The notes beneath the pieces are model-generated. The model ran no database searches and was not told the DNA's origin. It saw nothing but the letters and a program-made list of their open reading frames with translations. 39,844 bases of DNA. Origin: Gracilariopsis chorda. Lineage: Eukaryota; Rhodophyta; Florideophyceae; Gracilariales; Gracilariaceae. This document shows, in pieces, positions 21,858 to 38,000 of this stretch. The stretch is from contig NBIV01000404.1 of the NCBI GenBank assembly GCA_003194525.1, forward strand, positions 1 to 39,844. Direction: 5' to 3'. Numbering within the stretch: position 1 is the first letter of the stretch; each line of letters opens with the position of its first letter. A program made the translations under genes and the position numbers.

Positions 21858-22981
21858 TGACCATGGCGAGCAGATGACGATCTGCTTAAATTGTTCGTCT
21901 CGTCCGTCGACTCCATTTCGAGTGCCGTAACTTCCGCTAGTGCGACCATGGCGCGCTTGAGCGCTTGTGCAACATGCGACGCCCGGATTGCAGAGAAAAA
22001 CTGAGCAGTCGCCAGAAGAATGGCGGCTTATGGGCAAGAGAACGCTGCGATAGCATTTCGCTTTTCTAATACTTCTGAATTTCGCTTCGCTGACTCCGCC
22101 AGTATGCGCACAGCTTGCGTTGTGAGTTCTTCTTGACGGACTAGCTTTGCGCTCCGGGCGCCCTGACCGTACCGTTCAGCATTTGTTGTCGGCATCGCGG
22201 CTTCCTGCTCCTCACTATTTTGTGTAGAAATCTCTCCGCTTGACTTCAATTGACTCTCGTCTGGCTGCGTTGCTTGCGTTGCAGTAATAGAGCTGCCAGT
22301 AGAAGGCACGCACGACCACTTCGAATGATTTCGAAGTACTTTCCAGTCTCTGTAGTGAACTCATTTGTCCTTCTTGAAGTTCTTGTAGTCGTATTCCATT
22401 CTTTTGGTGTGCTCAAGGTGAATGGCGACTGCCATTGAAACTAAGACGTCGTCGTCAACCCCAGTGGGATTGCAAGCGCGCACTTTGCCAAGTGAGACCA
22501 AGAACTTCTGCACATCGGAAGGCATATCGCTAAAATTCTTCTTTATGCTCGCCGCACCTTGGTACTCATATTTGTTTTCCAGCCCGAGTTGTCGTTTGGG
22601 ACCCTTCTCAATAAAATGGCAGCGGATGGTGTCTTGGAATACTTTGCATGTCTGGTCCGTACCGGTTATTGGATCTTCAGACGCTGCAATCCATGCGCGA
22701 GCAAGGACATCATTCTCCTCGGCATCCCAGTTCTTCCAGCGCCCCATGGATGACAGGATGCAAGTGCGAGCAGAATGCTTGCAAGTTGCGCAGCGGGTAA
22801 CATAACAGCTTCGAGGGGTTTGCATTGGTTTACAGTTTTGCTGGGGGGCTACAACTGCGTCACTAGCCAATCTGGTGGGGGTTCGTGTCATATCTAATCC
22901 ATAGAATAGAGCAGAATGCCGGTCTAATGAGGGTTCGAATAGATCCAGGTCGTGCTCTACTGTATTGGGAAATGCTTTCAA
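21858..22981 (-). pseudogene. Myb/SANT-like (NAM-associated type) Harbinger accessory protein, broken
   Basis: This is the second protein of Harbinger transposons, a DNA-binding partner of the transposase. On the minus strand the frame runs from about 22981. No in-frame ATG starts it; the first Met is the one in LDMTRTPTR. A Myb/SANT-like helix block WKNWDAEENDVLARAWIAAS leads into EDPITGTDQTCKVFQDTI, followed by YDYKNFKKDK. A TGA at 22361-22363 interrupts, and the same frame continues with VHYRDWKVLRNHSKW, the typical end of that domain, so one nonsense mutation is likely. A Ser/Gln-rich linker and a helical segment to 22028 follow. After one more frame change a helical tail (AAILLATAQFFSAIRASHVA) runs to a TAG at about 21858. 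Confidence 0.75.
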
Positions 22982-23462
22982 TAGATTAGCAACCTGTGGG
23001 GTAGAGTGACGGTTTTTTGTGAGGACTGAAAATTTGTCATTGGAATGGAGAATAGACGCCCGCTAGAGATGCTCTATGCGACGCAAAGGCGGATAACTAT
23101 ACGTGAGCTAACACGGCTTACACTCTGAAATTGGTGTATAGACCGTCAAAGTGAAGTATATCGAGCCCGAAACCTCTTAGTTGAGTACAGGATGTTTAAT
23201 GAGGAAACAGAGCTAAGCCTGTTCATTGGTACAGTTGGCATAGGTCCTGAGAGTAGGCGCCCCGACTGCGAAAATATCTACTAAAAATATCTAAATGAAC
23301 GGCAATACTCGCACGGCCTTCTTGACCAAGCGCACAACACGTGCGCACATCACTCACATAGCAGCGCTTGACTACTCTGTATGACGTTTACAGCACGATC
23401 GCGATCAGATAGCATTGAGGTGTAATTCCTCGGTAGCAGCAGTACAACTCATATATCGTACT
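22982..23462. other. Noncoding sequence, nothing recognised
   Basis: Contains no supported gene; ends at the target site of the young Gypsy element. Confidence 0.4.
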
Positions 23463-23467
23463 ATGCA
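23463..23467. repeat. Target-site duplication ATGCA (left), Gypsy 2
   Basis: Exact match to 30188-30192; abuts the 5' LTR. Confidence 0.92.
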
Positions 23468-23491
23468 TGTAGAACATCGACGAAGATAGTC

Positions 23492-23551
23492 GGTAATTTG
23501 GGTAAGAATTTGGCTTCGAATGGTAATTTGTCCAGGAATTTGGCTTCAAAT
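23492..23551. repeat. Two 30-bp tandem repeats in the Gypsy 2 U3
   Basis: Each unit starts GGTAATTTG and ends GAATTTGGCTTC plus RAAT, with a variable middle. The position upstream of the TATA box suggests duplicated enhancer-like sites (inference). Confidence 0.8.
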
Positions 23552-23647
23552 GAACAATGATAAGGAATGTTTTATTGTAGTTCTATAGATTAATACTACG
23601 TTTACTGCTATCTCTACAGAGCGTCCACTTTCAATAAAGAAAAGGTC

Positions 23648-23676
23648 TATAAAAACCTTCTCTCTCAGACGAGAGA
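23648..23676 (+). promoter_or_regulatory. TATA box and start-site hairpin of Gypsy 2
   Basis: TATAAAAA at 23648-23655. About 25 bases on, TCTCTC-AGAC-GAGAGA forms a 6-bp stem, so transcripts would begin within or near a small hairpin. The start site itself is inferred. Confidence 0.6.
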
Positions 23677-23773
23677 CACAAGGGCGACCAAGTTCGAACT
23701 TCAGACCTTTCTCAGACCTCGGGGGCCCCCATCTTCATCCTCTTTCAACAACAATCAACCTGTCCGTTCCGTC

Positions 23774-23793
23774 ATATTATTATATAATAATAT
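23774..23793. repeat. Perfect 20-bp AT palindrome in the LTR
   Basis: ATATTATTATATAATAATAT equals its own reverse complement. It lies 14 bases upstream of the GTAAGT splice donor and is repeated in the 3' LTR at 30123-30142. Confidence 0.85.
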
Positions 23794-23807
23794 ACCCAAA
23801 TACAAAA

Positions 23808-23874
23808 GTAAGTTATTTTAATCAGTATAACCGCTACAAAGTCGTAGCATCGCACTAACCAATACTACTTTAAG
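23808..23874 (+). promoter_or_regulatory. Putative 67-nt intron crossing the LTR/leader boundary
   Basis: Donor GTAAGT at 23808-23813, branch-point-like CACTAAC at about 23852-23858, and acceptor CTTTAAG ending at 23874. Exon 1 ends in A (23807) and exon 2 begins TG, so the join makes ATG in the context ACAAA-ATG-TC, in frame with the zinc-finger ORF, which has no methionine of its own. The intron contains the last 31 bases of the LTR and the expected primer-binding region. Confidence 0.7.
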
Positions 23875-24356
23875 TGTCTGAGCAAAAGAAAAGTCCCCCA
23901 AAGGAAGAAATAAGTAAGGAAAAATTTATTTTACCACCTTCGATTACAGCCGATGATTTATATGAAGACGATGATGTATCAGACTTTGAAGATGTATCTG
24001 TAAAAGAGGTACCTATACCACGCACTGACAAAAGCAACTTTTGCAACTACTGCAACAATAATAAGAAGGAAACATCTTGGGGAGAGCACAACGTTTCTCA
24101 GGAACATTACGTCGCGCTATCGAAGGCGTTCAACTTTAAACTTTATTGTGACTATTGCCGTCATCTATTCAACTCTACATTCGAGTACTACGCGCACTTA
24201 CGCGTTGCAGAGCATATCAATCGTCGACGCAGGGTGGCGCAAGTGTACCGCGCGGCTCGTAAGGCTCATAACGCTCCCCCGCTAACGAGGACCACTGGGG
24301 CAGTACCTCCATTTGGAGTTGTGAAAGAGATACTTAAATTTCTTAAACGTCAGTAA
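23875..24356 (+). CDS. Accessory zinc-finger ORF upstream of gag (U1/matrin-type C2H2 pair)
   Basis: An open frame of about 160 codons, directly preceded by an in-frame TAA and containing no Met. The start is therefore best explained by splicing (A at 23807 plus TG at 23875). The N-terminal 50 residues are acidic and lysine-rich. Two fingers follow: C-x2-C-x11-H-x5-H (CNYC...HNVSQEH) and C-x2-C-x12-H-x5-H (CDYC...HLRVAEH). This spacing is that of U1C/matrin RNA- or DNA-binding fingers. A basic stretch NRRRRVAQVYRAARKAH comes next. Gag has its own knuckle, so this is an extra nucleic-acid-binding protein, not nucleocapsid. Possible roles (inference): RNA export, splicing control or packaging. 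I know no standard Gypsy counterpart. Confidence 0.7.
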
Positions 24357-24866
24357 CCGTTCACGGTACATATGAATAAAATTTAATTGATTTTCTGCAT
24401 TTTACTACTTGTGCACAATTGCCTCTACAGTACTCCAGAAGAAATAGAAAACTAATTAGAAATCATTTCTATTTATTAATCTATCGTCAAACGTATCTTG
24501 TACTATAGAGAGCCAAAATACAGTAGCCATTACAGAATAGAAATACGAATAACATTAAGTATACTCAATTTTCTAATCAAAGAGCTATCGGCTACTCTCT
24601 AACAGACCAGTACAGTACTACACATCAAGTAGATATTCAAATAGCACAAACAAATATAGTAAAATACACATTTCAATTGAAACATCAATACGACACAGTT
24701 TATTCAGGGACAGGATCAGACATAATCCTAATTCTAGTTGTAGAGACCGAAAACGATAAGTATTATCTATGTTGTAGTAGCACCAAATAACAATAGCCCA
24801 ATTAATTAAATGCAATCTCTCTAGAACCAAGAAGTATATTATTTACTCTAAACCCCTGAACACAAA
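24357..24866 (+). other. 510-bp leader between accessory ORF and gag
   Basis: No supported ORF on the plus strand. The minus-strand frame at 24618-24830 is probably chance. An acceptor-like ATCTCTCTAG ends at 24824, 42 bases before the gag ATG, and would remove upstream ATGs if joined to the LTR donor (inference). Confidence 0.45.
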
Positions 24867-25712
24867 ATGGAAGGAGATCTACTCGAACTACAAAATAGGA
24901 TTAATATATTATCCCAACAAATGAATCAAGTAATGCAAGTGAATAATCATCTGAGTAATGCACTCAATCAAAATATGCACAACACGGATGCCTTAAAAAT
25001 AGGCAAGCCAGAAAAGTTTTCAGGTAAATATGCAAGGTCATGGTTACAATCGTTAGAAAATATATTTTCGAACGTAAACGAAACAACCTCAGAAGAAAAG
25101 AAAATCAAATATGCAGTTAGCTTTATGACTGGCCAAGCCTTAGAATGGTGGGAACTTATAAATATAAACGATGAGATAAATATTGACTCATTCAATATAT
25201 TCAAGAAATTGTTGTTGGAATATTTTGAACCAGCAAATAGGGAACTTAACGCAAGAAGAATACTATCCAGTATTAAACAAATGGGAAAGCTATATAGCGT
25301 CACAAATTATAATAGAGAATTCACAAAGTGGTTATTGCAAGTACCAACAATGTCTCTTGAAGAACAAATATTTCTATATAGCAAAGGGCTTAAACAGAAT
25401 ATTCGCATTGAACTTGAAAGGGCAGAACCAAATAATCTACAAGAAGCAATGAATATTGCCGATAGAATGGATGCCATTTATTCTTCACAAAGGTTTAATT
25501 ATAACTTTCGTCCCTATAATCAAAATAGAAAACGAAATAATAATGATGAACCTACTCCAATGGAAATTGGAAATATTCAACGTTTTAGTAATAAAAACAG
25601 ACTAACGCCGGATGAAAGACAGAGACATATAAAAGATAATCTATGTTTCAAGTGCCATAGAAAAGGGTGTCGTCCTTGGAAGCATAGAGAGTTTAACAAC
25701 TCAAAAAACTAG
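24867..25712 (+). CDS. gag: Gypsy 2 gag (capsid and zinc knuckle)
   Basis: 281 residues from ATG in the context ACACAAA-ATG-G. The start is helical and Gln/Asn-rich with a coiled-coil look. The retrotransposon gag domain follows (KPEKFSGKYARSWLQSLENI, ALEWWELI, LLLEYFEPANRELNARRIL, LYSVTNYNREFTKWLLQVP, IADRMDAIY). It ends with a linker (PTPMEIGNIQ) and a knuckle CFKCHRKGCRPWKH, spaced C-x2-C-x4-C-x4-H, in which Cys replaces His and His replaces Cys of the CCHC norm. It builds the virus-like particle and binds element RNA. The ORF closes with AAA AAC TAG, a -1 slippery site at the stop. Confidence 0.92.
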   Translation: MEGDLLELQNRINILSQQMNQVMQVNNHLSNALNQNMHNTDALKIGKPEKFSGKYARSWLQSLENIFSNVNETTSEEKKIKYAVSFMTGQALEWWELININDEINIDSFNIFKKLLLEYFEPANRELNARRILSSIKQMGKLYSVTNYNREFTKWLLQVPTMSLEEQIFLYSKGLKQNIRIELERAEPNNLQEAMNIADRMDAIYSSQRFNYNFRPYNQNRKRNNNDEPTPMEIGNIQRFSNKNRLTPDERQRHIKDNLCFKCHRKGCRPWKHREFNNSKN

Positions 25713-25750
25713 GAATGATGGATTCGGATCAAAACAAGGGACCCGAGTCC
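25703..25750 (+). promoter_or_regulatory. -1 ribosomal frameshift signal between gag and protease
   Basis: The heptamer A AAA AAC (25703-25709) is in the correct gag phase and followed directly by UAG. Ten bases after it GGATTCGG (25720-25727) can pair fully with CCGAGTCC (25743-25750), allowing one G-U. A -1 slip reads into the protease frame, which is open there. Confidence 0.75.
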
Positions 25751-26491
25751 TTTAAGATTGTACAACATGAAATCGCAAAAAAACACAAAAACAACACAAA
25801 ACCAAAGAAAAACACAAAAACAAATACAATTGCTTTATGTGCGTTTAAGAATAGAAATAAGTGTTCTAATCTACTCATATTTTCAGGAGAAGGTATGAAA
25901 TTGAATAAAATGGAAAAGTGTAATATTCTAATTGATAGTGGGTGTGAAGATATTTGTATTTCAAAGAAGTATGCTGATCAGCTAAAATTAAAAAGAAAAC
26001 CAAGTGAGGTTAAAGCAGAGCTTTGGGATGGAACATTAGTCCCCATGGATGAATGTTTAGACGTTCTTAATATCCAAATTGGTAAAGCTAAGTTTAAAAC
26101 AAATCCATTCATAGTTGATTTAATCGGCTATGATGTTATTCTGGGAAAAACGTGGCTTAAGCAGTACAATCCACGAATAAACTGGAAAAGAAATACTGTA
26201 CTAGTCAATATTGATAACAAGAACTTCTTTCTGGACGCAGAATCTGTCAAAAGACAGAGCTCCCGTGAAGAAGCCCTACTAAGTAAAAAACAGTTTGCAA
26301 AACTCGTGAAAAGGCAAAAGAGTAAAATATACCTTGTTACAATACACCCAAAAACGAATCAATGTGAGCAAGACATTGAGAAGAACATATCTGATTCAAA
26401 AGATGATGAATTACAGAGAATACTTGAGGAGTATAAAGATGTATTTCCAGAAGATTTACCAAAAGGTTTACCACCCAAAAAGGCAAGTTGA
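25709..26491 (+). CDS. Gypsy 2 protease and pre-RT linker
   Basis: About 260 residues reached by -1 frameshifting; an ATG pair at 25715 would also allow reinitiation. A lysine/asparagine-rich stretch precedes the aspartic protease: CNILIDSGCEDICISKKYA with the D-S-G triad, then YDVILGKTWLKQYNPRINW as the second conserved part. The C-terminal portion (DELQRILEEYKDVFPEDLP, then KGLPP) is the conserved segment just before RT. It processes Gag and Pol in the particle. The frame ends GCA AGT TGA, exactly where the pol frame takes over one base ahead. Confidence 0.88.
   Translation, partial: LGMMDSDQNKGPESFKIVQHEIAKKHKNNTKPKKNTKTNTIALCAFKNRNKCSNLLIFSGEGMKLNKMEKCNILIDSGCEDICISKKYADQLKLKRKPSEVKAELWDGTLVPMDECLDVLNIQIGKAKFKTNPFIVDLIGYDVILGKTWLKQYNPRINWKRNTVLVNIDNKNFFLDAESVKRQSSREEALLSKKQFAKLVKRQKSKIYLVTIHPKTNQCEQDIEKNISDSKDDELQRILEEYKDVFPEDLPKGLPPKKAS
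26483..26491 (+). promoter_or_regulatory. +1 ribosomal frameshift site between protease and pol
   Basis: GCA AGT T followed by GA to make UGA. Skipping A at 26486 lets GTT (26487) be read and enters the pol frame (V-E-M-E-I). Yeast Ty3 uses GCG AGU U for its +1 shift; this differs in one wobble base. The in-phase stop directly after is expected for such sites. Confidence 0.72.
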
Positions 26492-29300
26492 AATGGAAAT
26501 TAAGATGAGAGATGACACCGCACCCGTAATGGGACCAATGTACAAACTATCTCCTAAAGAATTGAAAGAAATGAGAAAACAAATAAAACACTTACTTAGC
26601 CATGAATTTATTATGCCAAGCATAAGCCCTTGGGGAAGCCCTGTTTTATTTACTCCCAAAAAGGATGGTTCACTACGCATGTGCGTAGATTACAGAGCAT
26701 TAAATAAAAAGACGATTAAGAATAATGTACCACTACCAAGAATTGATGAAGTGTGGGACCAACTTGGAAACGCCAAATACTTCACTACTTTAGACCTTAG
26801 AGCTGGCTATAATCAAATACGAATTAAAGAGAATGATATACCTAAGACAGCATTCCGTACAAGATACGGGCAATTTGAGTATTTAGTCACACCATTTGGC
26901 CTAACCGGCGCACCAGGTTGTTTCCAAACTTTAATGAACAACATATTTAGACCACATCTTGACGAATTTGTCATGGTTTACTTAGATGATATATTAATAT
27001 ACAGCAAGACAAGGAAAGAACATTTAAAACATCTTAGAATTGTTCTAGATACTCTACGAAAAGAGAAACTTTATGGGAAATTATCTAAGTGTCATTTTAT
27101 GACCCAAGAAGTTGAATACCTCGGTCATATCATAACACCAGCTGGAATTAAGGTTGATAAAAGAAAGATAGAAGCTGTTGCTAAATGGCCAATACCGACG
27201 ACTGTTAGAGACGTACAAAGTTTTATTGGCCTATGCAACTACTATAGAAAGTTCATTAAGGACTTTGCCAAAATAGCTACACCTCTCACAGAACTTACAA
27301 AAGAAAAAAATGACTTTGTATGGAACAAAGCAGAACAAGAGGCTTTCGATCAACTTAAGAAAAAACTAGTAAGCGCACCCTTACTAAGATGTGCGAACCC
27401 ATCCTTACCATATGAAGTAACTACAGACGCTTCAGCCACAGGTCTAGGCGCAGTGTTAATGCAAGAAGACGAAAATGGTAAACGACCAATAGCATATGCC
27501 TCTAAGAAACTTAATGAAGCAGAGCAAAACTATTCTACCGGAGAACGAGAGTTACTAGCAATTATATTCGCCCTGAAAACATGGAGATCTTACCTACATG
27601 GCTCTAGATTTACTATTCTAACAGATCACCATCCCCTTAAGTTTCTAGAAACACAGAAGACATTATCTAGGAAACAAGCTAGATGGGTTGAATATATGCA
27701 ACAATTTGATCACACAGTATCCTATATAAAAGGGAAAGAAAATAGAGTAGCCGATGCATTATCCAGAAAGAATACAGAAGTATGCAAAACCTCTACAACC
27801 ATTATCAAATCTCTTTTTAACCTATCAACAATAAGAGTTAGTGAAAATACTCTAAAAAACCTTGAAACAGATTATAAGAGTGATCCAGAATTCTCACAAC
27901 TACTAGGTGGTATAAAAGAACCATACAACATAATAGGAAAAAGGTTATATTTTGAGAATAGGTTATGCATTCCAAATGGTAAGATAAGAAAACAAATTCT
28001 CCACGACAACCATTACTCACTACAAGGAGGACATAGATCTTATCAGAAGACACTTTTGCTCCTTAGAAAGCAGTATTACTGGAAAAAGATGAAGAGTGAC
28101 GTGAAGAAATATGTAACTGAATGTGAAAGGTGTCAAAAGGCAAAATCTATGAATAAAGAAATGCAAGGATTACTACATCCTTTTCCTCCACCTGTTAAAA
28201 AATGGGAAGTTATAACAATGGATTTTATATTTGACTTACCAAAAAGCGAAGACTATACAGGTATAATGGCTATTGTAGATAAGCTATCGAAGCGAGCTCA
28301 TTTCATTCCACTTACTGATAAAAGTAAAGCACCAGACATTGCTCACATATTCTATAAAGAAGTATACAGACATCATGGTCTTCCACGAACTATTGTATCA
28401 GACCGGGATAACAGATTTACCAGTGTATTCTGGACTACACTAATGAATCTTTTACAGATTAAGCTGAATTTGTCAACATCGTTTCATCCACAAACCGATG
28501 GACAAACGGAACGAATGTTCAGAACACTAGAAGAAATGCTACGATGCTATATCTCCTATACTCAAAGAGATTGGATAAAATACCTACCTGGTCTAGAGTT
28601 CGCATACAATAATCACACGAATAGTACAACCAATCTATCTCCATTCTTCTTAGAATATGGGCAAGACCCAATTACAATTAATGATCTTCTACATACTGAG
28701 GAACGTAAACCAGAGAATAACACATCTTTTGATTTCTTAAGGAATATAAGAAAAGCGGAGGAAGCTGCTAAATCTGCCATAGAAATAGCAAACACCAGAA
28801 ACAGTGACAATATAAACCAAAGGAGAAGACCTCAGAGTTTCAATATTAATGAGTACGTTTTACTATCCACAAAAAACCTTATGATTCCCAAAGGAAGATC
28901 GAAGAAGTTCATTCAGAAATACATTGGACCATTTCGTATCATATCATTCAATAAAAACAAAACATCGTATAAACTAGATCTTCCAAAAGAATATAAATTG
29001 ATACACCCAACATTCCATGTATCGCTATTGAAACCATTTAATAGTACTTATGACGCTAAACAAAGTATGGATATCCAAAAACTAATACATAAGGATAATT
29101 CTATTCCAATACACATCATTGGACATAGAATATGGAATAATGTTATTCAATATCTTCTTCGTACAGGACAGGACGATTCTGACGACATATGGCTCAATGA
29201 AAATGATACACGTATCACTACAGAGTTACTTGATTCTTACAAATCGAACACACAGAAGTCTATAAAAGGAAAGACTTCGCTTTCTTTTCTAGTCAACTAG
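26487..29300 (+). CDS. pol: Gypsy 2 pol: reverse transcriptase, RNase H, integrase, chromodomain-like tail
   Basis: About 938 codons, uninterrupted, with no own conventional start; it is entered by the +1 shift. RT blocks: SPWGSPVLFTPKKDGS, MCVDYRALNK, TTLDLRAGYNQI, FRTRYGQFEYLVTPFGL, YLDD at 26979 and YLGHII. RNase H: TTDASATGLGAVLMQ, GERELLAIIFALK, ILTDHHPLKF, ENRVADALSR. Integrase: a zinc region with H/H and CERCQ, then catalytic D at 28221, D at 28401 and E at 28509 (exact D-x35-E). A GPF module (KYIGPFRI) and HPTFHVSLLKPF come next. The tail IQYLLRTGQDDSDDIWLNE with TTELLDSY resembles a degenerate chromodomain, placing it among chromoviruses. It makes cDNA and inserts it. All motifs checked are intact. 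Confidence 0.93.
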   Translation, partial: VEMEIKMRDDTAPVMGPMYKLSPKELKEMRKQIKHLLSHEFIMPSISPWGSPVLFTPKKDGSLRMCVDYRALNKKTIKNNVPLPRIDEVWDQLGNAKYFTTLDLRAGYNQIRIKENDIPKTAFRTRYGQFEYLVTPFGLTGAPGCFQTLMNNIFRPHLDEFVMVYLDDILIYSKTRKEHLKHLRIVLDTLRKEKLYGKLSKCHFMTQEVEYLGHIITPAGIKVDKRKIEAVAKWPIPTTVRDVQSFIGLCNYYRKFIKDFAKIATPLTELTKEKNDFVWNKAEQEAFDQLKKKLVSAPLLRCANPSLPYEVTTDASATGLGAVLMQEDENGKRPIAYASKKLNEAEQNYSTGERELLAIIFALKTWRSYLHGSRFTILTDHHPLKFLETQKTLSRKQARWVEYMQQFDHTVSYIKGKENRVADALSRKNTEVCKTSTTIIKSLFNLSTIRVSENTLKNLETDYKSDPEFSQLLGGIKEPYNIIGKRLYFENRLCIPNGKIRKQILHDNHYSLQGGHRSYQKTLLLLRKQYYWKKMKSDVKKYVTECERCQKAKSMNKEMQGLLHPFPPPVKKWEVITMDFIFDLPKSEDYTGIMAIVDKLSKRAHFIPLTDKSKAPDIAHIFYKEVYRHHGLPRTIVSDRDNRFTSVFWTTLMNLLQIKLNLSTSFHPQTDGQTERMFRTLEEMLRCYISYTQRDWIKYLPGLEFAYNNHTNSTTNLSPFFLEYGQDPITINDLLHTEERKPENNTSFDFLRNIRKAEEAAKSAIEIANTRNSDNINQRRRPQSFNINEYVLLSTKNLMIPKGRSKKFIQKYIGPFRIISFNKNKTSYKLDLPKEYKLIHPTFHVSLLKPFNSTYDAKQSMDIQKLIHKDNSIPIHIIGHRIWNNVIQYLLRTGQDDSDDIWLNENDTRITTELLDSYKSNTQKSIKGKTSLSFLVN
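29276..29292 (+). promoter_or_regulatory. Strong 3' splice acceptor upstream of the 3' ORF
   Basis: CTTTCTTTTCTAG is a pyrimidine tract with TAG at 29290-29292, the best acceptor-like sequence in the element. It lies 44 bases before the ATG of the 3' ORF. Joined to the LTR donor it would yield an env-like subgenomic mRNA (inference). Confidence 0.5.
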
Positions 29301-29336
29301 CTTGTCGTCTCTACCAAGCCTACAAACTTTCTACAA

Positions 29337-29768
29337 ATGAATATCTACCACGTACAGGAATACGGACTGCTATGGGTCGCAGGCAACTACATGAAGAACC
29401 ATCTTCGACCTGTACTACAAGACCGTTACAGTCAAGACGTATTACTATATGAAATGATTAATATTAGCCTCGGCTATAAACAAATCAAAGATAATCTACT
29501 TACCGAAAATGATAAAAATATGGTTCTAGCACTATTTGAGCACCTTAATTCTTCTGTCACTGGTCTACTACAAGAAGACTTTTTAGTCCAATTTCACTAT
29601 CTCATTGTCGGAATGTATGGACACTTACCAAAACATGGAAACTACATTTCCATAGTTCAAGAATCAATTTCCAAATTAATTGATAACAAAGAAACATTTA
29701 TCCACATAAAATGCAACGATGGAAACCCTCATCTTATATATCCCAGCAAAGAAAATCTTACAATATAA
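29337..29768 (+). CDS. Unknown 143-codon ORF after pol
   Basis: ATG in the context CTACAAATGAA, matching the gag start context, ending TAA 48 bases before the 3' LTR and its purine tract. The product (starts MNIYHVQEYGLLWVAGNYM) looks soluble and mainly helical. It has no signal peptide, no membrane segment and only one cysteine, so it is not an envelope protein. I recognise no family. Its place is that of env or accessory genes in retroviruses. It is open in an element with nearly identical LTRs, which argues for selection or very recent insertion; the two cannot be separated from one copy. Confidence 0.65.
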   Translation: MNIYHVQEYGLLWVAGNYMKNHLRPVLQDRYSQDVLLYEMINISLGYKQIKDNLLTENDKNMVLALFEHLNSSVTGLLQEDFLVQFHYLIVGMYGHLPKHGNYISIVQESISKLIDNKETFIHIKCNDGNPHLIYPSKENLTI

Positions 29769-29802
29769 AATTAATTGGTTTGAGGACAAACCGTTAAAAA
29801 AG

Positions 29803-29816
29803 AAAAGGGGGAGAGT
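29803..29816 (+). promoter_or_regulatory. Polypurine tract of Gypsy 2
   Basis: AGAAAAGGGGGAGAGT directly before the 3' LTR, the plus-strand primer for cDNA synthesis. Confidence 0.85.
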
Positions 29817-30187
29817 TGTAGAACATCGACGAAGATAGTCGGTAATTTGGGTAAGAATTTGGCTTCGAATGGTAATTTGTCCAGGAATTTGGCTTCAAAT
29901 GAACAATGATAAGGAATGTTTTATTGTAGTTCTATAGATTAATACTACGTTTACTGCTATCTCTACAGAGCGTCCACTTTCAATAAAGAAAAGGTCTATA
30001 AAAACCTTCTCTCTCAGACGAGAGACACAAGGGCGACCAAGTTCGAACTTCAGACCTTTCTCAGACCTCGGGGGCCCCCATCTTCATCCTCTTTCAACAA
30101 CAATCAACCTGTCCGTTCCGTCATATTATTATATAATAATATACCCAAATACAAAAGTAAGTTATTTTAATCAGTATAGCCGCTACA
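29817..30187 (+). repeat. 3' LTR of Gypsy 2
   Basis: 371 bp, one mismatch to the 5' LTR by eye, followed by ATGCA. Confidence 0.95.
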
Positions 30188-30192
30188 ATGCA
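30188..30192. repeat. Target-site duplication ATGCA (right), Gypsy 2
   Basis: Exact match to 23463-23467. Confidence 0.92.
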
Positions 30193-31639: not shown

Positions 31640-31965
31640 TATACAAGGGTGAGAAGGGCCTTCGGCCCTAGCACTCTTTTCTGCATTTGTGACGTCTGCA
31701 TCTTGCCTGCAGGAAAGAGTGGTAGGGCCACCCTACCATTCTTTCCTGCAGTTGTGACGTTTCCATCCTGCCTGCAGGAAAGAGTGGTAGCGCCGCCCTA
31801 CCACACTTTCCTGCAGTTGTGATGTCTGCATCTTGCCTGCAGGAAAGAGTGGTAGCGCCGCCCTACCACACTTCCCTGCAGTTGTGATGTGTGCATCTTG
31901 CCTGCAGGAAAGAGTGATAGGGCCGGAGCTTGAGCGGTGATAAACCTGAGGATCAAACTTTTTTG
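31640..31965 (+). repeat. Tandem array of a 65-bp palindromic unit (about four copies)
   Basis: CCTGCAGGAAAGAGT begins at 31706, 31771, 31836 and 31901, a period of exactly 65. Each unit pairs with itself twice: CTTTCCTGCAG with CTGCAGGAAAG, and GTGGTAGNGC with GCCCTACCAC. The left border ATACAAGGGTGAGAAGGGCC and right border GAGCTTGAGCG-GATCAAAC are shared with the single-unit relative at 6.5 kb. Confidence 0.9.
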
Positions 31966-32893: not shown

Positions 32894-35067
32894 ATGTCGA
32901 GAAATCCCTCCGACGCGGAGCCAGTGTTTACGCGTAGTCGCTCCCGCGACAACGCGGACACTTCCGAAGTTCGGTTCGTAGCCCGTATCCCTATACGGAC
33001 AAGTTCCAGCCGTGCTGGCGCCGCCTCATCGCGGAATGATACCCCCGAACGGGAACCCCAGAACCTCCTTTTGCCCTCGTTATCACCCCCGCAGGAGAAT
33101 GCAGCATCGACTCCGGCTGTTGCCGCAGTGCCCCAGGCACCCCGGCCTGCTTCCGCTGTCGCGGCTTCAAGTCCCCGTGGAACGGGCGATAACACCCTCC
33201 AGGGGACTTCCCTGGAATCCCAGGTCCGCGCTCTGTGGACCGCCCATGACACCCTTGTAGGGGAACTAAAATCCCTCCAAGAGGTGGTCTCGGCAACCCC
33301 TGTAAAGGAGGTCGCCGAGGAACTCCGTATTTTACGGTCTGACGTCAACTCCGTGTTGGAGAGTTTGGGACAACCCGCCACTTTCATCGAAGGAGTTGAA
33401 GCCCGATTTGATCGGATTGGTGCCCGCCTGGAGACGCTGGAGCAGTTCGTCCTCATGGACAAACCATCCCCGGATGATCCGGTAAACGGGGCATCGCACA
33501 ACGACCAGCTTGCTGGGAAGAAGAAACGCCGTCATTGACGGAAACACCACCGAAAATATTCGGACTCCGATTCTTCGACATCGTCGGAATCATCCCGAAA
33601 CCATTCGGTTAGCTCGAGCTCCTTGGACTCCGACTCGGAGGACGAGAAGCGAGGCTACTCCTCCCGCTCGAAGCGGTCATCGGCCACTGAGGGTGTGGTC
33701 CGAGCCCGCCAGAAGGGGAGAAGACACCCCGGTCTCCGGGAATTGAAACCGACTAACCCGGATTACCGAAAGCTTTTATCATACCGGTACTACCGGCTCG
33801 AAGACTCGTCACTTGGACGTACGCCCCGTGGTACGGAAAAGGTGCGAGAATGCATTAAGCGAATGCAGCTCTCGCTCCGCAACCAGTATTTTACTGGAGA
33901 GGACCCAGTCCTAGTACTGGATTTCCTATCCCGCTTCGTAGCGGAGGCCGATATCCTCGGTATGAATGAGGTACAAGCCTATTTGGCTTTACCGTATTTC
34001 TTACGGGGAGTGGCGGAGGACCAATACACCTCTGTCAGAGGATCTTCTCGCGCCTCCGAGGGAGGAGTTACTTGCTGGCCGGAGGCTGTGCAGTATCTTC
34101 TGCGCTCCTACGCCACCAACACTGCTATTCAGCAGGCTATCCTCGCTTTGCGAGATACACGCCAGCGTGCTGGAGAGACCGAGACCGATTACTCGGTGCG
34201 CCTTAACAAGGCTTTCCACAGATGTGGTAACTTATACCCCGCTGGGGAGCGCAGTACCATGTTCATGGATGGTCTTGACCCGGCAATCCGGAGTTTAGTT
34301 ACCCGTTATCGGGAGGACAAGCGGAGGATCACCTACCTCGAGCTGGTCCAACACGCTCGAGCGGAAGGGGATGCACTTCGTGCAAGAACTCCGAACAATC
34401 GGTCTAAATCCGCCAAGGTGTTGTTGCTGGAAAGCGAAGCTTCCTCTCTCCCGCTCACCGCGGATGGGAACCCTGGACAGGGATTTGATACCGTGCATTT
34501 AGTGCAGGGGATGGTGTGTCGATACCCACCAGTGATTTGCCGTCAACGACGGAGATGACCCGTGATACGGGAACGGAAGACCCCGTTTTGTACAGTGGTA
34601 ACAGTCGGGTTCAACCCCAACGACTCCCGTTTTCAAACGGTCAATCCCGTTATCAACGGCCTGGATGGACTGACACCCGCCCTGCGGTTCGCTTCTCCGA
34701 TACTCGGAATAATAATCCGCGTGTCGCGGTGCTGGCTCCTATTTGCCACCTGTGCTATGCCCATGGCCATACCTCCCCTCAGTGTATTTGTTCACTGAAG
34801 GATATGGCCAAGGTGGTGGCAAATTATGAGGCCCTCACTCCAGAGGAGAAACGTTCCGTCCCGACGGCTTCCTACCTCCGTGCTAAAACGGACTTTTCCC
34901 ATGCCCTACCACAGACCCTGCGTGCGCGGCAAGCTTCATACACCCCGATTCGGGAGATCACGCAACCATCCGTTGCAACCCCCGCTTATGCGGATAGAAA
35001 CCCCCGTCAACGGGAGGAAGCACTCGTTGTCGAGGAAACCAACCCACCGCCGAAGGCGGAAAACTAA
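32894..35067 (+). pseudogene. Gypsy 3 gag, one stop and one frameshift
   Basis: ATG at 32894. Region 1 is Arg/Ser/Pro-rich, then a coiled coil (SQVRALWTAHDTLVGELKSL and following). TGA at 33536 interrupts RRH-[stop]-RKHHRKYSDSD, and the frame resumes with a serine/acidic stretch. The capsid domain covers about 33740-34400 (CIKRMQLSLRNQYF, FLSRFVAEADILGM, WPEAVQYLLRSY, MFMDGLDPAIRSLV). Near 34500 the frame shifts by -1 or +2, so the zinc knuckle CHLCYAHGHTSPQC (about 34748) lies in the next frame, which ends TAA at 35065. The shift inside gag has no slippery heptamer and is probably a mutation. Confidence 0.88.
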
Positions 35068-38000
35068 CTGAGGGAGTCTCCCCTTTGGGAGAGGCGTCCT
35101 CAAGAACGAGGCTGTTGGCGCCCGAGGCGTCCTCGCCTCGCTCCCCGGTGAAAGTCCTCTCGAGGAAAGACACCGCTGACGCGGACTCTGCGCACCTCGG
35201 TCTGTTGCGTCGTCCGTGGATACGGAGTAAAAATCCCCGGATTCCCGGTAGAGTGTTGGTCTTGGCCAAACGCAATTACAAGGTCTATGCCGACCTTGGC
35301 CTTGATCCCCAGTTTATGGTGAGGTTTCTCACCGTCCTGGATACAGGTGCAGGCCCCAACTTTGTTGTGGAATCATTGTTACCCCCGCTTGTGCGGTCGC
35401 GTATCCGCTCTGACGCGGTCCCCGACATTTCGGATGCGAACAACAATCCGTTACAAACGGTGGGCACAGTGGACCTCGTCGTGAGACTTGGTACCTCTGT
35501 GGTGAAGTCGGACGTCATCGTTTGCCGTTCATTGGCAGCACCAGTGATACTGGGATGTGATTACTGCGACAGATCTGTCGACGCAATCAGGCCCCGCCTC
35601 AGGCGTGTAGAACTTGACGACGGATCGTCGGTTCTGATTGTTCGCCGCCCGCTAAAGCGGTCCTCTCGGAAACAAGTTCCGCTCCCTGCTGCGCAGGAAC
35701 CACCGCCCGCGTCCCGCGAGTCCACCAAGCTCCGCGTCGCTGCCTCGGTTTCTATACCGGCTGAGTCCCAAGTCTGGGTGCAGGTAAATTCCCGTCAACA
35801 CGGTCTTCGGGTTATACAACCCCTCGCCTCGTTGTACGAGAAATCCCAGCTGGCGCTGGCTAATGGAATTGTCTCCATTTCCCCGGATGTCCCTTTCCGG
35901 ATATTGGTTGCCAAACTTGGCAAACACCCCCAGTATCTGGTCAAACACCAAGTAATTGGGAGTGTAACCCCCCATCCTATGGGAATGCTGCAAACAAAGA
36001 TGACAGCCGCCGATGTACTCGGAGTTACCACCTCCTCTGAGGAGTTCGCCCCGCCGTCCGAAGACTTCAAGTCTAAGGAGGGGGAGGAAACCGCTACTTC
36101 AGCGTCGAACACACCGAGTAACTCGGAATTGCGAACCACACCTGTTCCACAGGACAATGCTCCATCGAGCAACGACCGGATTGATCCGGAAAAAGCACTT
36201 GAAGCGCTGGACTTCAGCCACGTGCCAGAGTCGCACCGCGACAAACTCCGTACTATGTTACGGGAATTCACCACAATGTGGGATGGCTCGCTTGGCGAGA
36301 TTAATGCAACGGAACACCGGATCGATTTAATCCCCGGTGCGCGACCGGTTGCACAACCCCCTTACAGGGCAGGTCCGAAAGCTCGGGAAGAGGAGCAGTC
36401 CCAAGTGGACAAGATGCTCCGCGCAGGTGTGATTGAGCCCGCTCAATCACCCTGGGCATCCCCAGTTGTACTGGCTTTAAAGGCCGACGGAACCTGGAGG
36501 TTCTGTGTCGACTACCGCCGGCTCAATGCCGTGACTGTTAGGGACACGTACCCCATCCCTCGTATGGACGAGTGCATTGACTCCCTTGGAGACGCCACTG
36601 TGTTCACGGCCCTCGATGCCAATTGGGGATATTGGCAAGTACCTGTCAGACAGGAGGATCGCGACAAAACCGCATTCACCTGCCATGCATGAACGTACCG
36701 CTTCAAGCGGATGCCATTTGGATTAACCAACGCCCCCGCCACCTTTCAGCGTGCAGTAGATATTCTACTCAACCGCTTTAAGTGGCGGAGTTGTCTGGTC
36801 TACCTTGATGATATTATCATCTTCTCCAACTCGTTGGACGACCATCTCACTCACGTCCGAGACGTGCGGACCGTACTCCGCGATGCGGGAATTACCCTCA
36901 AGTTGAGGAAATGCGAGTTTTTCACAGATACTGTGAAGTATCTGGGTCACATTATCCGTCCTGGACGGTTAGCGATCGAGAAAGCTCGAGTCAAATCCCT
37001 CGTTGAGGCGAAAGAACCCGTACTCAAACGGAACTGCGCTCCTTTCTGGGGCTGGTCAACGTCTATCAACGGTTTATCCCGAACTTTTCGGATACTGCGG
37101 CGCCCCTAAACGCGTTGTTGCGAAAGGGAACCCCCCAAAACTGGGAACACTTACGCCCGAGCAATCGGAAGCCTTGAACTCCTTAAAGGAGGCTGTCACA
37201 TCAGCACCAATCCTACATCTCCCAAAACCTGGGTTGCCATACTCCCTAGATACGGACTCGAGCGACTACCAAGTCGGGTGTGCTCTTTTTCAAACCACCC
37301 TCGAGGGGGAACGACATCCAATTGGTTATTGGTCGCGTTCGCTCAATGTTCATGAGCGGAACTACTCCGTATCGGAGAAAGAGTGCCTCGCCGTCGTATG
37401 GGCGATGACCACTCTGCGCCACTACCTTATGGGAATTCACTTCACCGTGTACACGGATCATTCCTCATTGAGGTGGTTGATGAATATCTCCGACCCGTCG
37501 GGACGCCTCATGCGCTGGAGACTCCGCCTCGCGGAATATGACTTTCAAGTCATTTATAAAAATGGTGCGCAGAACACCCAGGCCGACGCTTTGTCGCGGT
37601 TACCCACAAGTGGGGAAGCACTCCAACGGAGGATGATGAAGTCCCATGTTTCATGGCTATAGACCCGGATGATCCGGAACATGCCGTCGAGGCTAGGCCA
37701 GAAAACTGGGACGAGGATGCTGATTTTGACGAAATACTCGCATCGCGAGATAAATCTGAGAACCCGTTACCGGGAAACTTTGTACCGGTATCACCGGAAG
37801 AAATGATCCGAGAACAATTCGGCGACCCATTCTGTACGAGAATTCGTGCCCGTATCAACGGTGGTGAAGATCTTCCTTTCGGGGTAAACGACAAAGGCTT
37901 ACCTCGTAAGAAAGGTCGAAGCCCGCCCACAGATTGTGGTACCTCATTCCCTGCAGTCGCGGGTGTTACATCTATTACACTACGCCCCCATTGGATGTCA

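Follow-up and report, generated by a model that had tools for sequence, protein, structure and literature searches.

The stretch of DNA analysed here, called the window throughout, covers 39,844 nucleotides of a contig of the red alga Gracilariopsis chorda and contains a young Ty3/Gypsy element at positions 23468-30187 (Table 1). Its two 371-nt LTRs differ from each other at a single position. Membership of Ty3/Gypsy (Metaviridae) is indicated by the order reverse transcriptase, RNase H, integrase, together with the LTRs, a target site duplication, a polypurine tract and a tRNA primer site. Besides gag and pol, the element carries an accessory frame before gag, ORF1, and a 3' ORF; the latter gave no Pfam match at the default threshold, and no conserved acceptor was seen before it. 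The protease and pol frames of the window copy are split (26450-26500). A database protein of 1194 aa (P0002), 99% identical to the pol of the window, reads through as a single ORF, so intact copies of the element exist.

Table 1. Features of the element and of its predicted intron, in window coordinates
Feature	Position	Strand	Basis or remark
Target site duplication ATGCA, left copy	23463..23467	.	same as 30188-30192
5' LTR, 371 nt, TG...CA, TATAAA at 23648	23468..23838	+	direct repeat with 29817-30187
Predicted intron, 67 nt, LTR tail to ORF1 start	23808..23874	+	consensus ends and branch site; motifs kept in divergent families
Predicted 5' splice site GTAAGT, within LTR	23808..23813	+	conserved in near and divergent copies
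Primer binding site, initiator tRNA-Met, 12 nt	23842..23853	+	complement of tRNA 3' end with CCA added
Predicted branch site CACTAAC, touches primer site	23853..23859	+	CTAAC conserved in near and divergent copies
Predicted 3' splice site AG, then TG	23873..23874	+	AG/TG conserved in near and divergent copies
ORF1, accessory protein, two C2H2-like motifs	23875..24356	+	predicted AUG from A 23807 and TG 23875-23876
gag	24867..25712	+	Ty3_capsid and Retrotrans_gag (Pfam)
Protease region	25697..26491	+	RVP_2, gag-asp_proteas
pol: reverse transcriptase, RNase H, integrase	26493..29300	+	RVT_1, RT_RNaseH, Integrase_H2C2, SH3_Tf2-1
3' ORF, ATG at 29337	29337..29768	+	57-63% identity in 9/11 relatives
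Polypurine tract 5' of 3' LTR	29796..29815	+	sequence
3' LTR, second donor copy at 30157	29817..30187	+	direct repeat of 5' LTR
Target site duplication ATGCA, right copy	30188..30192	.	same as 23463-23467

A search of the element's own genome (91.3 Mb) returned 41 candidates, 40 of which were scored. Of these 40 places, 19 are near-identical 5' copies, 10 consist of an LTR only, and the other 11 are relatives with 65-68% identity. When gag is read in its correct frame, its best pieces are 54-69% identical in all 11 relatives, and 45% in a third family described below; no relative of the element was found in viral contigs. Copies on contigs C755, C84, C509, C225 and C943 are spaced at about 6.35 kb, like head-to-tail elements with common LTRs, possibly through unequal recombination or as an effect of assembly. 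In the neighbourhood of the insertion, the window contains a 233-codon ORF at 22361-23062 on the minus strand, whose product looks somewhat Myb/SANT-like, a tandem repeat of 65-nt units at 31665-31924, and, judged by eye, a putative second retroelement downstream at 33539-36692, whose ORFs include a reverse-transcriptase-like stretch (DANWGYWQV).

A predicted mini-intron enclosing the primer site

The predicted intron begins inside the 5' LTR, and the LTR end (23838) falls within it, so that 31 nt of the LTR would be cut out. GTAAGT, CTAAC and AG are present at workable spacing, with the branch A (23858) 16 nt from the AG end, as judged by the general spliceosomal consensus. A preliminary description had proposed this intron, with its donor at 23808, CTTTAAG at 23868-23874 and a total of 67 nt, and a base-by-base check bears out all three; its branch word CACTAAC is present as well, at 23853-23859 rather than at about 23852. 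As it also stated, the last base of exon 1 is A (23807) and the first two of exon 2 are TG (23875), which together would make an ATG in the frame of a 160-codon ORF (23874-24353, with the stop codon to 24356) that contains no Met and directly follows a TAA (23871-23873). The contexts of three starts had been called equal: this stands for the joined start and the gag ATG at 24867, both reading ACAAAATG, and fails for the 3' ORF, which reads ACAAATG, one A fewer.

The description had also placed the missing primer site within the intron, and the site can now be identified, wholly inside it. After the LTR end, the family reads TGGTAGCATCGC, a perfect primer-site match, in 17 of the 19 near copies; the window copy and one other (L016) have one mismatch each. 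The primer tRNA is thereby predicted to end GCGATGCTA-CCA. None of 60 of the 61 tRNAs first found (63 of 3277 candidates scored) fits as primer. When a plant initiator tRNA-Met served as query, four host places matched, all of them tRNA-Met(CAT) genes ending GCGATGCTA, which identifies the site as one for initiator tRNA-Met. The word of the branch site starts at the last base of the primer site. Genome-wide, the exact 12-mer of this primer site occurs 243 times, versus 3 times in a reversed control; the initiator-Met primer is common among LTR elements of this genome and provides a quick handle for locating them. A candidate hairpin located where the LTR meets the primer site, GCTAC...GTAGC, was discarded, as paired changes do not maintain it in four relatives (L035, L036, L037 and L039).

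Conservation across three families

The comparison of other genomic copies, which the preliminary description had put forward as a check, found the donor, the branch site and the A/TG junction conserved both in near copies and in divergent families. Near copies retain the donor in 19/19 cases, the branch site in 18/19 and A/TG in 18/19; in the near copy L016 the branch site and the TG are both lost. Of 16 divergent ORF1 places retrieved, 15 were counted, leaving out L044, a distant, single and decayed copy in which neither primer site nor intron is recognisable. Many of the 15 are decayed too; 10 of them keep GTRAGT, 13 CTAAC and 11 AG/TG, and the donor is lost in five. Wherever a divergent copy keeps the donor, the final base of exon 1 is A (10/10). 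Among the first 11 divergent copies, ORF1 is uninterrupted in three only. L031 retains all splice signals. The branch site is a variant in both L036, whose other signals are intact, and L038, which has also lost its AG and carries ATG as its second codon. An intact relative with an ATG of its own had been named in advance as evidence against the intron. L038, a single copy, approaches this case: it departs from the intron model and fits it badly.

In these first two families the predicted intron measures 57, 62 or 67 nt (66 in one copy). The LTRs of the window element and of L031 share short matches only (22, 14, 11 and 13 nt), and the exact 14-nt match, ATACAAAAGTAAGT, is the donor with its flank. 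Not one of the 30 genomic copies that span the region is without the intron, as one would expect if copying of spliced RNA were impossible.

A third family emerged from a pattern search that combined the donor with the primer-site core and CTAA, ORF1 being no part of the pattern. The search matched 28 places, versus none in the reversed control: 18 of the window family, 6 of the L031 type, 3 of a new family (L146-L148) and a last one, L149 (C13), which has no A/TG and was taken as a chance match; 27 of the 28 are copies of the three families. The third family reads CAACA/GTAAGT at the donor, has the same primer site, then TACTAAC and TTTACAG/TG, and its intron would measure 70 nt. A/TG is present in two of the three copies, the other being without TG at the junction. 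Over 712 residues, the pol of this family shows 63% identity; its LTR does not notably resemble those of the other two families. Across the three families, the junction stays A/TG while the intron varies between 57, 62, 67 and 70 nt. Beside one third-family element lies a 632-codon ORF with acidic repeats (EEGNEPEKP...; L151:5221-7119).

As a control, we took 36 places among 100 listed of the 243 primer 12-mers, about every second one from the top, excluding the ORF1 families and not counting L146-L149. These 36 places form 14 sequence clusters, hence are not independent, and were counted whether or not they belong to whole elements. GTRAGT was found within 75 nt upstream of none of them (0/36), and CTAAC within 63 nt downstream of none (0/36), which indicates that the device marks one lineage rather than LTR ends in general. 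The comparison of copies points to conservation of the splice sites beyond neutral decay, and splicing of the 67-nt mini-intron appears very likely on these sequence grounds.

ORF1 and its predicted start codon

ORF1 is conserved in relatives at the sequence level. Between the window and L031, dN is 0.26, dS is saturated and third positions are 44% identical (39-44%, again with dS saturated, for the second family as a whole). Among second-family copies, dN is lower than dS in each comparison: 0.053/0.154 for L031 and L036, and 0.104/0.256 and 0.103/0.216 for others. The predicted protein contains a paired CX2C...HX5H motif, which in the window consists of C56, C59, H71 and H77 followed by C91, C94, H107 and H113 (Met not counted); these residues are invariant in four aligned proteins, except that H71 is R in L036. 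Pfam returned weak zinc-finger matches only, below the cut-off, and the sole named relative, a hypothetical protein (43% over 65%), comes from the red alga Gracilaria domingensis. Two database copies of ORF1, P0001 and P0122, begin with M, which proves nothing, because a GTG start chosen by a gene finder would look identical.

In the third family, the corresponding frame has 296 codons without Met in the C439 copy, which has TT at the junction, and the frame of L147 has one internal Met. Its end may distantly resemble the double finger of ORF1: tblastn gave E 0.002 at 24% in a search against that one stretch only, and hhalign, for the same stretch, a probability of only 29% with E 0.00058. Purifying selection is not clear among the three young copies of this family (dN/dS 0.057/0.032, 0.052/0.065 and 0.042/0.062).

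A common property of these frames is the lack of in-frame Met, with 0/159, 0/160 and 0/296 codons in the three families. At the Met frequency usual in the other proteins of the element (2.65%), the chance of finding none is 0.014 for 159 codons and 0.0003 for 297. Selection against out-of-frame AUGs within ORF1, suggested by a mononucleotide shuffle, was not borne out by synonymous shuffles (P 0.77, 0.98 and 0.36) and was dropped; for the leaders, dinucleotide shuffles gave P values for AUG depletion of 0.098 and 0.006, and 0 of 500 shuffles. From an assumed start at 23675, exon 1 contains no AUG, so that after splicing no AUG would precede the split one. Unspliced leaders, also counted from assumed starts, have 5-8 AUGs 5' of gag. 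One option for initiation at gag in unspliced RNA would be shunting, which has been described for foamy viruses (PMC5035957) and pararetroviruses (PMC5902531).

Two possible fates of one RNA

We propose, with considerable confidence, a model in which unspliced RNA is both the genome and the Gag/Pol messenger, and spliced RNA is the messenger for ORF1. The LTR promoter would produce one primary RNA with two fates. Left unspliced, this RNA would retain the tail of the LTR as well as the initiator-Met primer site and could act as genome and as Gag/Pol messenger, ORF1 remaining silent for want of an in-frame AUG and with TAA directly before it. Joining 23807 to 23875 would give ORF1 its start codon, as the first AUG, and would remove the LTR's final 31 nt together with the primer site, leaving an RNA able to act as ORF1 messenger only. 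Loss of the primer site from spliced RNA, already part of the preliminary description, necessarily follows from splicing of this intron and holds up when copies are compared. That splicing takes place and is partial, where transcription starts and that there is any regulation, we infer.

A regulated switch between genome and messenger, in which the ORF1 protein might take part, would go one step further. In such a switch, tRNA annealing (together with reverse transcriptase or Gag) and U2 recognition of the branch site might be mutually exclusive, since branch site and primer site touch. A fate switch controlled by the element itself, with the ORF1 protein acting in feedback on how unspliced RNA is spliced, exported or packaged in a Rev- or Tas-like circuit, is a doubtful prospect at present.

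The strongest competing reading accepts splicing and lets it serve ORF1 expression only: loss of the primer site would have no regulatory role, spliced RNA being left unpackaged anyway. It overlaps the two-fate model, from which it differs only on the switch, and we give it not quite an even chance. An intron running from an LTR donor to an acceptor ahead of ORF1 inevitably contains the primer site, and the spliced RNA of BARE is kept from replication by other means (PMC3735527). Nothing speaks directly against this reading; the absence of intron-less copies (0/30) fits exclusion from replication by whichever means. It is unlikely that the same donor is joined also to an acceptor before gag, which would leave gag RNA likewise without primer site. 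In favour are the AUGs upstream of gag and the stretches ending in AG that the window, L031 and L032 have shortly before it. Against it, AG is missing from L034, L036 and L038 at the L031/L032 position, and we saw no conserved acceptor directly before gag.

Less probable still, indeed very unlikely, is the proposal that there is no splicing, that ORF1 is read from unspliced RNA through a near-cognate codon such as GUG 23874, and that the conserved stretches serve packaging or integration. ORF I of RTBV starts at AUU. Leaky scanning in that virus is aided by ORFs I and II without internal AUGs (PMC5902531), a feature that ORF1 shares within its own frame, and the LTR end and primer site do have duties of their own. 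The conserved blocks are nevertheless exactly the 5' splice site, the branch site and AG/TG, with variable spacing, and exon 1 ends in A in all divergent copies that keep the donor; packaging and integration predict neither. Functionless splice-like words near an LTR end are scarcely credible as an explanation, for each motif is short by itself but the 36 control places (14 clusters) yielded none and the motifs are conserved in three families.

The two-fate model has partial counterparts in known systems. The preliminary description had likened it to retroviruses, a likeness that is closer for foamy viruses than for retroviruses with a donor downstream of the primer site. The major splice donor of foamy viruses (Spumaretrovirinae) lies in the R region of the LTR (PMC5035957), upstream of the primer site as in the window element, so their spliced RNAs must lack the primer site. 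Foamy spliced RNAs serve pol and other genes through distant acceptors, whereas the Gypsy element described here would use a 57-70 nt intron, covering no more than the LTR end and the primer site, and a split AUG; with regard to a foamy-type env gene, its 3' ORF gave no Pfam match. In RTBV (Caulimoviridae), splicing from a leader uORF expresses P4, and the leader has a Met-tRNA primer site close to its end (PMC5902531). Its spliced RNA should thus also lack the primer site while expressing an otherwise silent ORF; RTBV has no LTR, however, its acceptor is distant, and the start codon comes whole from the leader uORF.

Splicing itself is not unusual in Gypsy-class elements: errantiviruses such as Springer, with a GTAAGTG donor 43 nt downstream of the LTR and a spliced Env (PMC13097621), likewise carry gag-pol on unspliced RNA and a further gene on a spliced one. 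In Springer that further gene is env, unlike here, and the spliced RNA probably retains the primer site. What does appear unusual in a Gypsy-class element is a short intron spanning the LTR end and the primer site. BARE1 (Ty1/Copia) likewise has separate RNAs for translation and replication and a short intron, of 104 nt (PMC3735527), but that intron lies just beyond the gag coding domain, would leave the primer site in place and makes a stop codon rather than a start codon. Among plant Ty3/Gypsy elements, Ogre has an extra ORF before gag, Diaspora has predicted donors in the LTR, and a long leader is described (PMC1142308), all features recalling the window element; no intron upstream of gag is shown for them, unlike the prediction made here. 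In the open-licence literature we recognised no LTR retrotransposon that combines a primer-site mini-intron with a split AUG; older reports of insect elements whose env start codons are made by splicing may exist in subscription journals.

The balance between messenger and genome in the RNA of LTR elements is called a major question in the BARE paper (PMC3735527). These elements use one transcript as both, and any RNA that is spliced must stay out of replication. If it is spliced, the mini-intron, conserved in three families whose LTRs are dissimilar, would serve both ends with a single cut of 57-70 nt: ORF1 would gain its start codon and the RNA would lose its primer site.
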